Below are positions 22,503 through 29,479 of a stretch of DNA of 64,000 nucleotides, piece after piece. Every line of letters begins with the position of its first letter. Position 1 is the stretch's first letter. Below the pieces are notes generated by a model. It did not search any database. It was not told the origin of the DNA and worked only from the letters and a program-made list of their open reading frames with translations. The stretch is from the NCBI RefSeq assembly GCF_900172325.1, contig NZ_FWFR01000002.1, positions 620,001 through 684,000 on the forward strand, written 5' to 3'. The stretch is from Oceanibacterium hippocampi (GTDB taxonomy: Bacteria; Pseudomonadota; Alphaproteobacteria; Sneathiellales; Sneathiellaceae). Position numbers and translations under genes: made by a program.

Positions 22503-24152
22503 TCACCCGGCCGCGCTGTCCTTGACCCGGCGGAGATAGCCGTCAGGCCAGTAGGTCACGTGATGGCGAAGCGGGCTCTCGTTGAACTCGAAGGCCGGCA
22601 TGTCGATCACGAAATCCTCGTTCTCGGCAACATAGGCGCGTGCCGCCTCGGTCGGGTTGCTGACCGGCCAGTCGGCGCCGGTCCGCGGCCCGCCGGCGAC
22701 CTGGGCCATGATGCCGTCGGCGGCGACCGCGTAGCAGCCGACCGTCACCAGCGGCGCATAAGCGCGCAGTTCCGCCAGGACGTGGTCCTTGGTGTGGTTG
22801 CTGTCGAGGATCAGCATGACCTTGTCGTCCTTGCCGATCCGCGCCTTGACCTGGTCGACGATCGCCTGGCTGGTCGATGACCCCTCGAACATCTCGATCC
22901 GCTTGAACAGCGGATGTTCCTCGATGGCGCGCCGGTTGTGCGGGCGGATCTGGATGTCGACGCCGATCACCCGGCCATGGCCCATGGCCTCGAACAGGCT
23001 GGCGTAGTAGATCAGCGAGCCGCCGTGGGCGATGCCGGTCTCGATGATGACGTCCGGCCTGGTCGTGTGGATCAGTTCCTGGATCCGGATCATGTCCTCG
23101 GGCAGCTGGATGATCGGCCGCCCCATCCAGGTGAAGGTATAAATATGCTTCACGTCCCAGCCGACGCGGAGCCAGGCCTTCGAGGCGACTTCCCAGCCCT
23201 CGGCGCTTTCCATCGGCAGTTCCAGCGCGATGCCCCGGGCCTCGTCCCGGTAGCGGACGATGCCGCGCGCCTCGTCGATTGTCGTTTCGCCGCGCGACGC
23301 CGGGTCGAGGGCATGGTGATAGCCGCGATAGCTGTTCACGACATCGTCGATGACATCGTTCAGCGAGCGCGTGATCGGCGGAAACTCGGCGCTGTAGCGG
23401 CCCATGTCGATGGGCGGGAAGATCCTCGTCGGCGCCTTGTCGGCGACCGTCGTCTTCACTCCGGTCAGGCGGCCGAGGGCGGCGGCGATATCGCCGTGGC
23501 TGACGTTGTCCGGGCCGGCAACATTGTAGATCCGGCCCTTCGCCCTTGTCGCGATATTGATCAGCGCCTCGACGACATCATCGACATAGACGTAATTCTT
23601 GGCCGATTCGAGACTTTCGCCGAGCGTGAGCGCGTCGGAGGTGACGGCGGTACGAATGACCGAGTTCAGGAAATTCTGCGAATTCGGATCGAAGCCGGCG
23701 ACGTTGGACACACGGGCCACGCGGATCTTCGGATTGTCGAGCGACAGGCAGGCGCTCTCGCCCATGATCTTGGACAGGTTGTAGAGGTCGTCGGCAGCCT
23801 GCGGATCGACGGAAAGCCGGGCCGCCTCCGAGGTCGTTTCGCAGCCCAGGTAGACCCGTGTCGTCGACAGATAGAGGAAGCTCTCGAACTTGGTCGAATG
23901 CAGGATGGTGTTGAGCAGCGAGACATGGGCATCGACCGTCTCCCGCTTCTTCTCGCGGAAATCGGCGGTCATGCCGATGCAATAGATCACCTGGCCGAGA
24001 TCGGCGTTGTAGGGCGCGACCTTGAAGTCGGAGTTCCGCGCCCCGGAAAGCCAGGTCCGGTCCGGCGTCGCGACCTCGTGCCCCGATGCTTTGAGCGTGT
24101 CGGACAGTCGCCGGCCGATGAACCCGCCGGCCCCAAAAATGGTGAATTTCAC
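22503..24152 (-). CDS. Fusion of SDR epimerase/dehydratase and CmcI-type methyltransferase-like domain
   Basis: Residues 1 to about 270 are an atypical extended SDR: FTIFGAGGFIGRRL binds NAD, LYLSTTRVYLG and DLYNLSKIMGE supply Ser and YxxxK. From about 300 to the end the sequence is of the cephalosporin-hydroxylase (CmcI) family, a SAM-methyltransferase-like Rossmann fold: QLPEDMIRIQELIHTTRPD, IIETGIAHGGSLIYYA, GRVIGVDIQIRPHN and LILDSNHTKDHVLAEL. Both halves look intact. In polysaccharide clusters CmcI-like proteins are usually separate and are thought to methylate sugars. The fusion implies consecutive steps on one sugar nucleotide. Its stop overlaps the rfbG start region. Confidence 0.82.
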   Translation of the reverse strand: MKFTIFGAGGFIGRRLSDTLKASGHEVATPDRTWLSGARNSDFKVAPYNADLGQVIYCIGMTADFREKKRETVDAHVSLLNTILHSTKFESFLYLSTTRVYLGCETTSEAARLSVDPQAADDLYNLSKIMGESACLSLDNPKIRVARVSNVAGFDPNSQNFLNSVIRTAVTSDALTLGESLESAKNYVYVDDVVEALINIATRAKGRIYNVAGPDNVSHGDIAAALGRLTGVKTTVADKAPTRIFPPIDMGRYSAEFPPITRSLNDVIDDVVNSYRGYHHALDPASRGETTIDEARGIVRYRDEARGIALELPMESAEGWEVASKAWLRVGWDVKHIYTFTWMGRPIIQLPEDMIRIQELIHTTRPDVIIETGIAHGGSLIYYASLFEAMGHGRVIGVDIQIRPHNRRAIEEHPLFKRIEMFEGSSTSQAIVDQVKARIGKDDKVMLILDSNHTKDHVLAELRAYAPLVTVGCYAVAADGIMAQVAGGPRTGADWPVSNPTEAARAYVAENEDFVIDMPAFEFNESPLRHHVTYWPDGYLRRVKDSAAG

Positions 24153-27314: not shown

Positions 27315-28631
27315 TCAGCCCCCGGCGACCAGCATCCCCGACAGCAGGGTCGCGATCCCGAGGAAGGAGAAAAAGCCGGCAACGTCGGTCACCGTCGTCA
27401 GGATGATCGACGAGGCTACCGCCGGATCCTGGCCGAGCCGGGCGAGGACGATCGGCACCAGCGCGCCAGCGATCCCGGCGGCGACCATCGAGATCACCAT
27501 CGAGAGCGCGATCACCAGCACGAGGCCGACACTGCCGCTCCACAGGAAGACGCCGATCCCGCAGGTGATCGCGATCGCGACACCGTTCCAGAAGCCGGCG
27601 TTCATCTCCTTCCGCATCACGCGGAGCCAGTGGCCGATGGTGATTTCCCGGAGCGCGAGACCGCGCATCGTCACCGCCAGCGCCTGGGCGCCGGCATTTC
27701 CCGATTGGCCGGCGACAACCGGCAACAGCACCGCGAGCGCGGTGAAGGTGGCGATGGTATTCTCGAAGAAACCGACGACCGATGCGGCAAGGAACGCGGT
27801 CAGCAGGTTGATCTGCAACCATGGCATGCGCTTGCGCAGGGCGAACCAGCTCGACGACAGGGCGCGTTCGTCCTTGCTCACGCCGACCATCGTCTGGATG
27901 TCGAGACTGGCCTCGCTCTTCAGGGCGTTCAGCAGGGTTCCATGGCGAACGATGCCCAGAATGCGCCCCTCCTGATCGACGACCATCAGTTCATCGAGAC
28001 TATGCGCCTCGAGGGCCTCCACGACCTCTTCCCGAGGCGCCATCGGCCCGACCACCGCGGGGACTGCCCGGGCGAGGCTCGACAACACCGTATCCGGGCT
28101 GTTGAAGGCGAGCTTGCGGACATCGACGACCCCGGCGAGCCGGTTCTCTGCGTCCAGCAACTTGATGAAATGGACGTCGGCCGAACCGCGATGGGGTTCG
28201 CGCAGCAAGGCCATCGCACGGCCGACGGTCTCTTCCGCCGGCAGGCTGAAGACAGCGGTATCCATCAGGCGCCCGGCCGTTGCTTCCGGATATTCCAGCG
28301 TCTGGCGGAGCTGGGTCGCCAGGCCGTCCGGCAGTTCGCCCAGGACCTGCTCACGGCGGTCGTCCGGCATCTGCCCGAGGAGGGCGACCGCCCGGCTCCG
28401 CTCCGGCTGTTGCAACACCGCCAGGCGAAGCTCCACCGGCAGCCGTTCCAGTACCGTCGCCCCGGTCATCGGCGTCAGCGCGTTCATCACGGGCACCGCG
28501 CGTTCGGGCGGGACCAGCGACAGGTAACGCTCGATCTCGGCCGGGGAATAGGCGTCGATCGCCCGTGCCGCCTCGGCCGGGTAGCGGGACAGATACGCGC
28601 TGGCCAGTGCCAGGGTCGCCGGGCCGGTCAT
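27315..28631 (-). CDS. mgtE: MgtE-type magnesium transporter
   Basis: The 438-residue protein has the three MgtE parts. An alpha-helical N-domain includes ERLPVELRLAVLQQPE and MPDDRREQVLGELPDG. Two CBS motifs follow, around DVHFIKLLDAENRLAGVVDV and DELMVVDQEGRILGIV. The C-terminal membrane domain has LPVVAGQSGNAGAQALAV, the signature that lines the ion pore, with about five helices. The frame runs far upstream, but ATG 28631 overlaps the stop of the preceding MgtE-like gene (ATGA) and gives normal length. It imports Mg2+ or a related divalent cation, gated by the cytosolic domains. Confidence 0.92.
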   Translation of the reverse strand: MTGPATLALASAYLSRYPAEAARAIDAYSPAEIERYLSLVPPERAVPVMNALTPMTGATVLERLPVELRLAVLQQPERSRAVALLGQMPDDRREQVLGELPDGLATQLRQTLEYPEATAGRLMDTAVFSLPAEETVGRAMALLREPHRGSADVHFIKLLDAENRLAGVVDVRKLAFNSPDTVLSSLARAVPAVVGPMAPREEVVEALEAHSLDELMVVDQEGRILGIVRHGTLLNALKSEASLDIQTMVGVSKDERALSSSWFALRKRMPWLQINLLTAFLAASVVGFFENTIATFTALAVLLPVVAGQSGNAGAQALAVTMRGLALREITIGHWLRVMRKEMNAGFWNGVAIAITCGIGVFLWSGSVGLVLVIALSMVISMVAAGIAGALVPIVLARLGQDPAVASSIILTTVTDVAGFFSFLGIATLLSGMLVAGG

Positions 28632-29479
28632 CGGGCCGTCCCCTCTTCCGGCGGCGACGGCGGCTCGACCTGCGCCTTCGCCATCGAGGCGGCAAGGACG
28701 GCGGCAAGGCCGACATAGACATTGTTCGCGAGCAGCAGATAGTCGCCGCCATCCTCGTCGTTGCCGGCGGCGCGCGGCTGTTCCGAGGCCACGCGCAACG
28801 CGGCATGGCGGACGCTGCCGACCAGCTTGCCGTCCCGGTCGACCACCGGCAGGGTATCGAGATCGGCCCAGGCCGGCTCCTCGAGCGCGCTCTCGATGCT
28901 GGCGCTGGCCCTCAGCGTACGCTTCGCTGGGATGGCGACGGCCGGCAGCAACGCCTCGTCGCCAGCGGTTAACAGGCGCGACAGCGGCACCACGCCGACA
29001 AGCTTCTGCCCGGCATCGACGACATAGATCTCGCTGACCGTCGTCGGATGCCGCTGCAGTCGCCGGCGCGCCACGGCAACACTCGCCGTCTGCGGCAGTG
29101 CCATCGGGTGGCTCTCCATCCAGGCGCCGACCCGGTGCCTCGGTTGCAGCAGGATCACCTCGAGCTGCAGGCGGGTCGCCGTCGACATGCCCTGGAGCAG
29201 GCTGGCCCGGCGCTCCGGCGCGATCCGGCGCAGGATGTCGGCGGCCTTGCGGCGCGCCATCGCCCCGAGAAAGGCCACCGCGAGTCTGTCGTCGACATGT
29301 TCCATGGCCGCGGCGGCAACGCCCGCGGACAGCGTCGAGAACAGGTCGACGGCGCGATCCTCCGGAAGCTCCGCCGCGAAGGCGGCGATCGCCTCCGCGT
29401 CGCATTCCTCGGCAACGGCCGCGGCATCCTGCAGATGGCGCTCCAGGAACAGCTCGGCCAGCGCGTCCCGCCCGCTCAC
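28628..29479 (-). CDS. Soluble MgtE N-domain/CBS protein without the transport domain
   Basis: The 283-residue protein resembles the cytosolic half of MgtE: an N-domain with ELPEDRAVDLFSTL, MARRKAADILRRIAPERRASLLQGM, then two CBS motifs around VSEIYVVDAGQKLVGVVPLS and LDTLPVVDRDGKLVGSV. It ends soon after one weakly hydrophobic segment (NNVYVGLAAVLAASMAKA) and has no pore domain. It overlaps the MscS gene upstream and the full mgtE gene downstream by four bases each. A duplicated regulatory subunit that assembles with the full transporter is a reasonable inference. The alternative is a decayed MgtE paralogue, but the frame is intact and coupled. Confidence 0.78.
   Translation of the reverse strand: MSGRDALAELFLERHLQDAAAVAEECDAEAIAAFAAELPEDRAVDLFSTLSAGVAAAAMEHVDDRLAVAFLGAMARRKAADILRRIAPERRASLLQGMSTATRLQLEVILLQPRHRVGAWMESHPMALPQTASVAVARRRLQRHPTTVSEIYVVDAGQKLVGVVPLSRLLTAGDEALLPAVAIPAKRTLRASASIESALEEPAWADLDTLPVVDRDGKLVGSVRHAALRVASEQPRAAGNDEDGGDYLLLANNVYVGLAAVLAASMAKAQVEPPSPPEEGTAR

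Follow-up and report, generated by a model that had tools for sequence, protein, structure and literature searches.

A pore-less MgtE paralogue as the probable controller of an MgtE subfamily that has lost most of its Mg2+ sensor

We consider it fairly probable that a pore-less MgtE-like protein, encoded directly upstream of mgtE in Oceanibacterium hippocampi, acts as an almost obligatory regulatory subunit for a subfamily of MgtE that is no longer gated by canonical Mg2+ sensing. MgtE is the textbook Mg2+ channel, shut by its own cytosolic Mg2+ sensor. The subfamily to which the operon MgtE belongs has lost most of this built-in sensor; hence the pore-less half is probably the controller of the operon MgtE. 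The two genes are preceded by a third, which encodes an MscS-like membrane protein. All three lie in the window, by which we mean the whole stretch of 64,000 nucleotides that was analysed, with the following features:

30303-29476, minus strand: first gene, 275 aa, for a cage-less MscS-like (PF05552 type) membrane protein
29479-28628, minus strand: second gene, 283 aa with a GTG start, for the pore-less MgtE-like protein (N domain, CBS pair and C-terminal helix)
28631-27315, minus strand: third gene, 438 aa, a full mgtE of the partnered subfamily
29476..29479, minus strand: GTGA overlap of 4 nt between the MscS-like stop and the start of the pore-less gene, read from the sequence
28628..28631, minus strand: ATGA overlap of 4 nt between the stop of the pore-less gene and the mgtE start, read from the sequence
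29147..29479, minus strand: N domain of the pore-less protein, residues 1-111 (Pfam MgtE_N at residues 15-110; helices in the model)
28772..29146, minus strand: CBS pair of the pore-less protein, residues 112-236 (Pfam), containing the VGAW stretch (117-120) and W204
28676..28747, minus strand: predicted C-terminal helix of the pore-less protein, residues 245-268 (hydropathy and a low-confidence model)
27912..28631, minus strand: cytosolic N domain and CBS pair of the operon MgtE, residues 1-240, with most Mg2+-sensor acids lost
27324..27851, minus strand: pore region of the operon MgtE, residues 261-436 (structure model), in which D416 corresponds to Thermus D432 and D402 to Thermus D418

The first-pass annotation had described a pore-less N-domain and CBS gene that overlaps a full mgtE, and both genes are present as described, joined by the ATGA overlap. 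It had also placed an MscS channel at the head of the operon. An MscS-like gene does come first and is joined by the GTGA overlap, but its product has no match to the MscS cytoplasmic cage. The pore-less protein and the operon MgtE of the window are 27% identical over 226 aligned positions. The source genome encodes one other MgtE, a 496-aa frame (G000:C16, locus L001), and has two CorA matches; a search of it with the MscS-like profile matched the operon copy alone. A further MgtE_N match in this genome (G000:C7:113781-114089, 26.3 bits, just above the cut-off) falls in a 342-aa frame that we presume to be FliG. Elsewhere in the window, a single 549-aa frame at 22503-24152 (minus strand) has two apparent domains; by eye, an NAD-dependent epimerase comes first and a cephalosporin-hydroxylase-like domain second.

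Perhaps the three genes are neighbors merely by chance? We searched named genome records with MgtE peptides alone, a test that is not biased by the pore-less gene, and compared the loci of the best 80 of 322 relatives. The three-gene order proposed in the first-pass annotation was borne out: the pore-less gene lay directly upstream of mgtE on the same strand at 76 of these 80 loci, and the MscS-like gene lay upstream of it at 70. Three of the four loci without a pore-less gene are contig ends (L048, L051 and L111, where no more than 276 nt precede the mgtE frame), and the ten without an MscS-like gene are nine contig ends and L090. L090 is the one true exception, an MgtE locus with neither companion gene and with a disrupted mgtE 5' end. 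That 5' end (L090:4335-5661) joins a fragment that by eye resembles a small gene neighboring the cassette at seven other loci; the arrangement may reflect a deletion, or else a join made in assembly.

The junctions among the best 80 of 322 are tight. With start codons picked by script, the pore-less gene overlaps mgtE at 49 of 76 loci and is no more than 30 nt away at 72, the commonest overlaps being 4 nt (23 loci) and 11 nt (20 loci); the MscS-like and pore-less genes overlap by 8 nt at 42 of 70 loci and are at most 30 nt apart at 69. No natural fusion of any two of the three genes occurs in the 76 loci, each of which has separate frames. Scattered stop codons in the pore-less half of relatives, which would have told against the proposal, were not seen: of the 72 copies that no contig end interrupts, 71 have their full length of 274-310 aa. 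The single truncated copy, L065:1171-1654, is on a MAG contig, as is the one locus with a split MscS-like frame (L110:2866-3667).

The three-gene order recurs across records named Alpha-, Beta-, Gamma- and 'Delta'-proteobacteria and Nitrospinaceae. A first survey of 95 genomes turned up distant copies in this order in four members of the same family, whose pore-less proteins are 26-28% identical, and Pseudoalteromonas piscicida carries a complete cassette on a 1.3-Mb circular replicon. When 385 genomes of the class were searched with a profile of the MgtE pore region, 11 genomes, the source genome included, matched at E <= 1e-60; the pore-less profile gave a short-frame match above 88 bits in the same 11, among the matches listed. 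Ten of the 11 have a third match to the pore-less profile, consistent with a further ordinary MgtE, and the exception is a genome that is 68% complete. Among 398 genomes of the phylum, six have the pore-less gene, again including the source genome, and all six copies adjoin an MgtE gene and an MscS-like gene. In one of the six (G712) the match extends past a stop close to the C terminus, and the open frame measures 273 aa. We conclude that the cassette is rare (6/398, 11/385) yet holds together as a unit. The 76/80 linkage (best 80 of 322) together with the match in the same 11 of 385 genomes rules out chance adjacency.

Three further short frames were candidates for an unpartnered pore-less gene, and none of the three proved to be one. 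G043 is an ordinary-type MgtE truncated where its contig stops, G024 is an ordinary-type MgtE with its pore in another frame, and G090 is a 193-aa CBS-containing frame on a piece with no MgtE pore or MscS-like match. MgtEs from Sinorhizobium and Shinella plasmid records were also rejected as cassette members; they have no pore-less or MscS-like neighbor and score low with the pore profile.

The pore-less protein has the N domain and CBS pair folded as in 2YVY, by sequence and in the model. Pfam reports MgtE_N (43.5 bits) and two CBS stretches; the MgtE pore domain is absent from the 283 residues by Pfam, and the model places a single helix after the CBS pair. The predicted structure (pLDDT 89.6) has its best PDB fold matches in the Thermus MgtE cytosolic domain chains (TM 0.72-0.73, query length), which are also its nearest solved relatives by sequence. 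In an unrooted tree of the N and CBS region, the pore-less proteins, the operon MgtEs and the ordinary MgtEs formed three clades with bootstrap 100 each; the tree held 39, 42 and 42 rows of these, Thermus being among the ordinary MgtEs, and used half of the collected pore-less and operon MgtE rows. The pore-less proteins formed one clade and are therefore one family, not the product of repeated mgtE decay. Residues particular to this family include W204 (77/78 pore-less, 0/84 operon MgtE, 0/41 ordinary MgtE), R84 (73/78, 1/84 and 2/41, respectively) and the VGAW stretch. Among the pairs listed, the dN/dS of the gene was 0.05-0.26 in 12 distinct close pairs, some with a member in common, and a 13th was saturated. 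The family is under purifying selection.

Could the pore-less protein be a free cytosolic sensor or a decaying duplicate that touches neither membrane protein? It does evolve faster than its neighbors: pairs of pore-less proteins share a median of 26% identity, where the MgtE cytosolic half has 36% and the MscS-like protein 35%. One copy is also truncated (L065). Even so, the full length of 71/72 uncut copies (best 80 of 322), the dN/dS of 0.05-0.26, the single clade and the near-perfect linkage make this reading very improbable, and the first and second of these rule out a relic or pseudogene.

The first-pass annotation had called the pore-less half soluble. This label is uncertain, because the predicted C-terminal helix of the window protein is hydrophobic: the 24-residue helix at 245-268, which the model gives with low confidence, reaches a 19-residue hydropathy mean of 1.74. 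A mean of at least 1.6 occurs at the C terminus of 20 of 78 pore-less proteins and elsewhere in the protein in 10 of 78. With so few reaching 1.6 there, we rejected a clear C-terminal membrane anchor as a rule of the family. The segment may be a peripheral membrane helix or a docking helix.

The CBS domains gave a mixed picture with regard to nucleotide binding. PMC5529423 gives the ATP-site residues of Thermus MgtE as Y170, R187, D188 and F227. These are partly kept in the operon MgtEs and poorly in the pore-less proteins, where the F227 column is F in 10/78 and the D188 column is D in 20/78; ordinary MgtEs vary there too (F in 1/41, D in 4/41).

The operon MgtE is a complete transporter by domain content. 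MgtE_N, two CBS stretches and the MgtE pore domain all score over the Pfam cut-offs (46.3, 42.2 and 110.2 bits, respectively), and NCBIfam TIGR00400 scores 228.1, just under its cut-off of 232.75. The equivalents of the pore aspartates D418 and D432 are each acidic in all 84 operon MgtEs; the D432 column is acidic in 39 of 41 ordinary MgtEs.

The sensor is a different matter. According to PMC5882242, Thermus MgtE closes as Mg2+ bridges acids between the N domain, the CBS domain and the plug helix; the sensor acids, described there with their sites and mutants, include E59, D91, D95, D226, D247, D250 and E258. PMC5529423 and PMC8104411 give the general gating scheme. Of these seven positions, a mean of 5.15 were acidic in the 41 ordinary MgtEs, 0.55 in the 84 operon MgtEs and 1.04 in the 78 pore-less proteins. 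The operon MgtE of the window has P, S, A, S, T, N and L there. The loss was plainest at D91 (acidic in 39/41 ordinary, 0/84 operon MgtE and 8/78 pore-less), E258 (34/41, 2/84 and 7/78) and D247 (38/41, 11/84 and 20/78); at D95 and D226 even the ordinary MgtEs vary, with acids in 19/41 and 15/41, respectively. The net charge of the cytosolic part is -30.9 for ordinary MgtEs, -11.0 for operon MgtEs and -0.7 for pore-less proteins. L001, the ordinary MgtE of the source genome, keeps E59, D91, D247, E258 and D259 and has E at 250, with no acid at 95 or 226. Apart from L001, the ordinary MgtEs were collected as matches to the pore-less protein or its profile, so any bias in the set would be towards likeness.

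Single sensor columns could slip in the alignment because the N domain is divergent. When a slip of one residue was allowed, operon MgtEs had an acid at E258 in 75/84 (mainly D259), at D91 in 28/84, at D226 in 23/84 and at D247 in 19/84; E59 (2/84), D95 (1/84) and D250 (23/84) were about unchanged. Two plug acids, E255 (69/84) and D259 (73/84), are kept at their own positions. Some Mg2+ response may remain, since E255, D259 and E216 are mostly kept in the operon MgtEs. These alignments support the view that the operon MgtE would not be gated by the full set of canonical Mg2+ bridges. Perhaps the partner supplies the missing acids? The pore-less mean of 1.04 of 7 (n=78) rules this out. The double regulation suggested in the first-pass annotation, taken as regulation by Mg2+, likewise finds no support in the counts, both proteins being without most of the sensor acids (0.55 and 1.04 of 7).

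The pore-less protein likely acts on the operon MgtE, because the N-CBS module is common to both, MgtE is homodimeric as described in PMC5529423, the genes are nearly inseparable and the cytosolic parts diverge together. Over 71 loci the pairwise distances of the pore-less protein correlated with those of the MgtE cytosolic half at r 0.90, of the MscS-like protein at 0.87 and of the MgtE pore at 0.72, where co-inherited genes are expected to correlate and 0.90 versus 0.87 is a small gap. A hetero-oligomer of MgtE and the pore-less protein, with coupling to the MscS-like channel, is plausible from gene order, predicted fold and correlated divergence.

What, then, is the first gene? Pfam reports MS_channel_1st_1 (57.3 bits) and the PF05552 'conserved TM helix' in the MscS-like protein; the MscS beta domain (MS_channel_2nd) scores 15.8 bits in the window copy, under the cut-off of 20.2. 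A profile of 63 copies matched MscS chains from TM2-TM3 to the beta domain (residues ~24-166 of 286), the best at E 1e-7 to 1e-9, and so takes in both the pore helix and the beta domain. The C-terminal alpha/beta cage of MscS has no match, the profile alignment stopping near residue 166/286, at profile position 260 of 279. Judged by these matches, the protein is a cage-less MscS-like membrane protein with a putative channel function.

Two other readings give this protein a larger part. The first joins the three proteins in a single assembly, a Mg2+ channel steered osmotically or by tension, in which the pore-less protein would link both membrane proteins. The three-gene order kept in Alpha-, Beta-, Gamma- and 'Delta'-proteobacteria and in Nitrospinaceae records speaks for it, as does the loss of most canonical Mg2+-sensor acids from the operon MgtE; against it, no fourth neighbor was general enough across 82 places to give a functional hint, and we regard such an assembly as unlikely. 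In the second, the pore-less protein would serve the MscS-like protein, replacing its missing cage and gating it, with MgtE merely co-expressed. The match of the MscS-like family to MscS over TM2-TM3 to the beta domain alone, the tight overlap of the two genes (8 nt in 42/70 loci, <=30 nt in 69/70; best 80 of 322) and the distance correlation of 0.87 fit this. However, the predicted fold of the pore-less protein is that of the MgtE cytosolic half, every pore-less gene identified in our samples adjoins an MgtE, and the correlation with the MgtE cytosolic half is slightly higher. We therefore hold service to the MscS-like protein to be quite unlikely.

The 82 places comprise the 80 named loci (best 80 of 322), the Pseudoalteromonas locus and the window, many with flanks cut, and no fixed fourth gene was found across them. 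Genes that from their sequence we take to be RimK-like (ATP-grasp) and RimB-like (zinc protease-like) lie near the cassette in 16/82 and 11/82 places, respectively; flanks of this kind are seen at L081, L035, L086 and L092, among others. Frames at L086, L090 and L092 look by eye like succinylglutamate desuccinylases. A gene for a CorC/CNNM-like CBS transporter, another Mg2+-related family, lies upstream of the MscS-like gene in 7/82 places (L036, L037, L040, L047, L081, L095 and L107).

If the pore-less protein is a regulatory subunit of the operon MgtE, as we favor, it may pack on the N-CBS half of the MgtE dimer by way of surfaces on its CBS and N domains, and its C-terminal helix may help to keep it at the membrane. 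It would then set the MgtE plug helices, so that gating would answer to some signal besides the canonical Mg2+ bridges between subunits. Candidates for that signal would be nucleotide binding by the CBS domains and a change of state in the cage-less MscS-like protein. The other MgtE of the source genome, which keeps most of the sensor, could carry ordinary Mg2+ homeostasis, leaving the operon MgtE to serve a special state such as osmotic change. A bolder form, which we offer tentatively and think unlikely, is a three-part machine in Pseudomonadota and Nitrospinaceae: a largely Mg2+-blind MgtE would be gated by a pore-less paralogue that also touches the cage-less MscS-type channel, and Mg2+ entry or release would follow membrane tension or osmotic state, not cytosolic Mg2+.

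Were the regulatory-subunit reading true, MgtE gating could move to a separate subunit and to another signal. The subfamily keeps its pore, drops most of its sensor and is nearly always accompanied by the pore-less paralogue and the cage-less MscS-like protein. Annotating operon MgtE genes as ordinary Mg2+-homeostatic MgtE may accordingly mislead. Nisaea, Sneathiella, Pseudoalteromonas and others form a ready test set. MgtE, MscS and CBS-pair proteins have all been described before. The titles and abstract openings of the open-licence PMC papers that were listed yielded no description of a pore-less MgtE subunit or paralogue family, the gene order, the linkage or the sensor loss, which appear new in the literature searched.

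Four known systems bear comparison with the cassette. The N domain of the pore-less protein weakly matches the FliG middle domain (FliG_M 14.6 bits, cut-off 25; FliG chains at E ~1e-4), but the pore-less protein has a CBS pair, and no flagellar gene was seen adjoining it when neighbors were read by eye. Stand-alone CBS-pair proteins, such as plant CBSX1/CBSX2 and AcuB, resemble it in having a CBS pair without a transporter domain, whereas the pore-less protein adds an N domain of the MgtE type and goes with a single MgtE subfamily. MscS (PDB 2OAU, 6RLD) and the MscS-like protein are alike through TM2-TM3 and the beta domain; the latter differs in its lack of a cage match and in an upstream part of the PF05552 'conserved TM helix' type. 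The fourth is Thermus thermophilus MgtE (PDB 2YVX/2ZY9; Pfam MgtE_N, CBS, MgtE). The operon MgtE has the same domain order and the equivalents of D418 and D432, and the pore-less protein shares the N and CBS fold in its model. In contrast to the solved MgtE, a homodimer according to PMC5529423, the operon MgtE is without most of the sensor acids and is paired with a pore-less paralogue.
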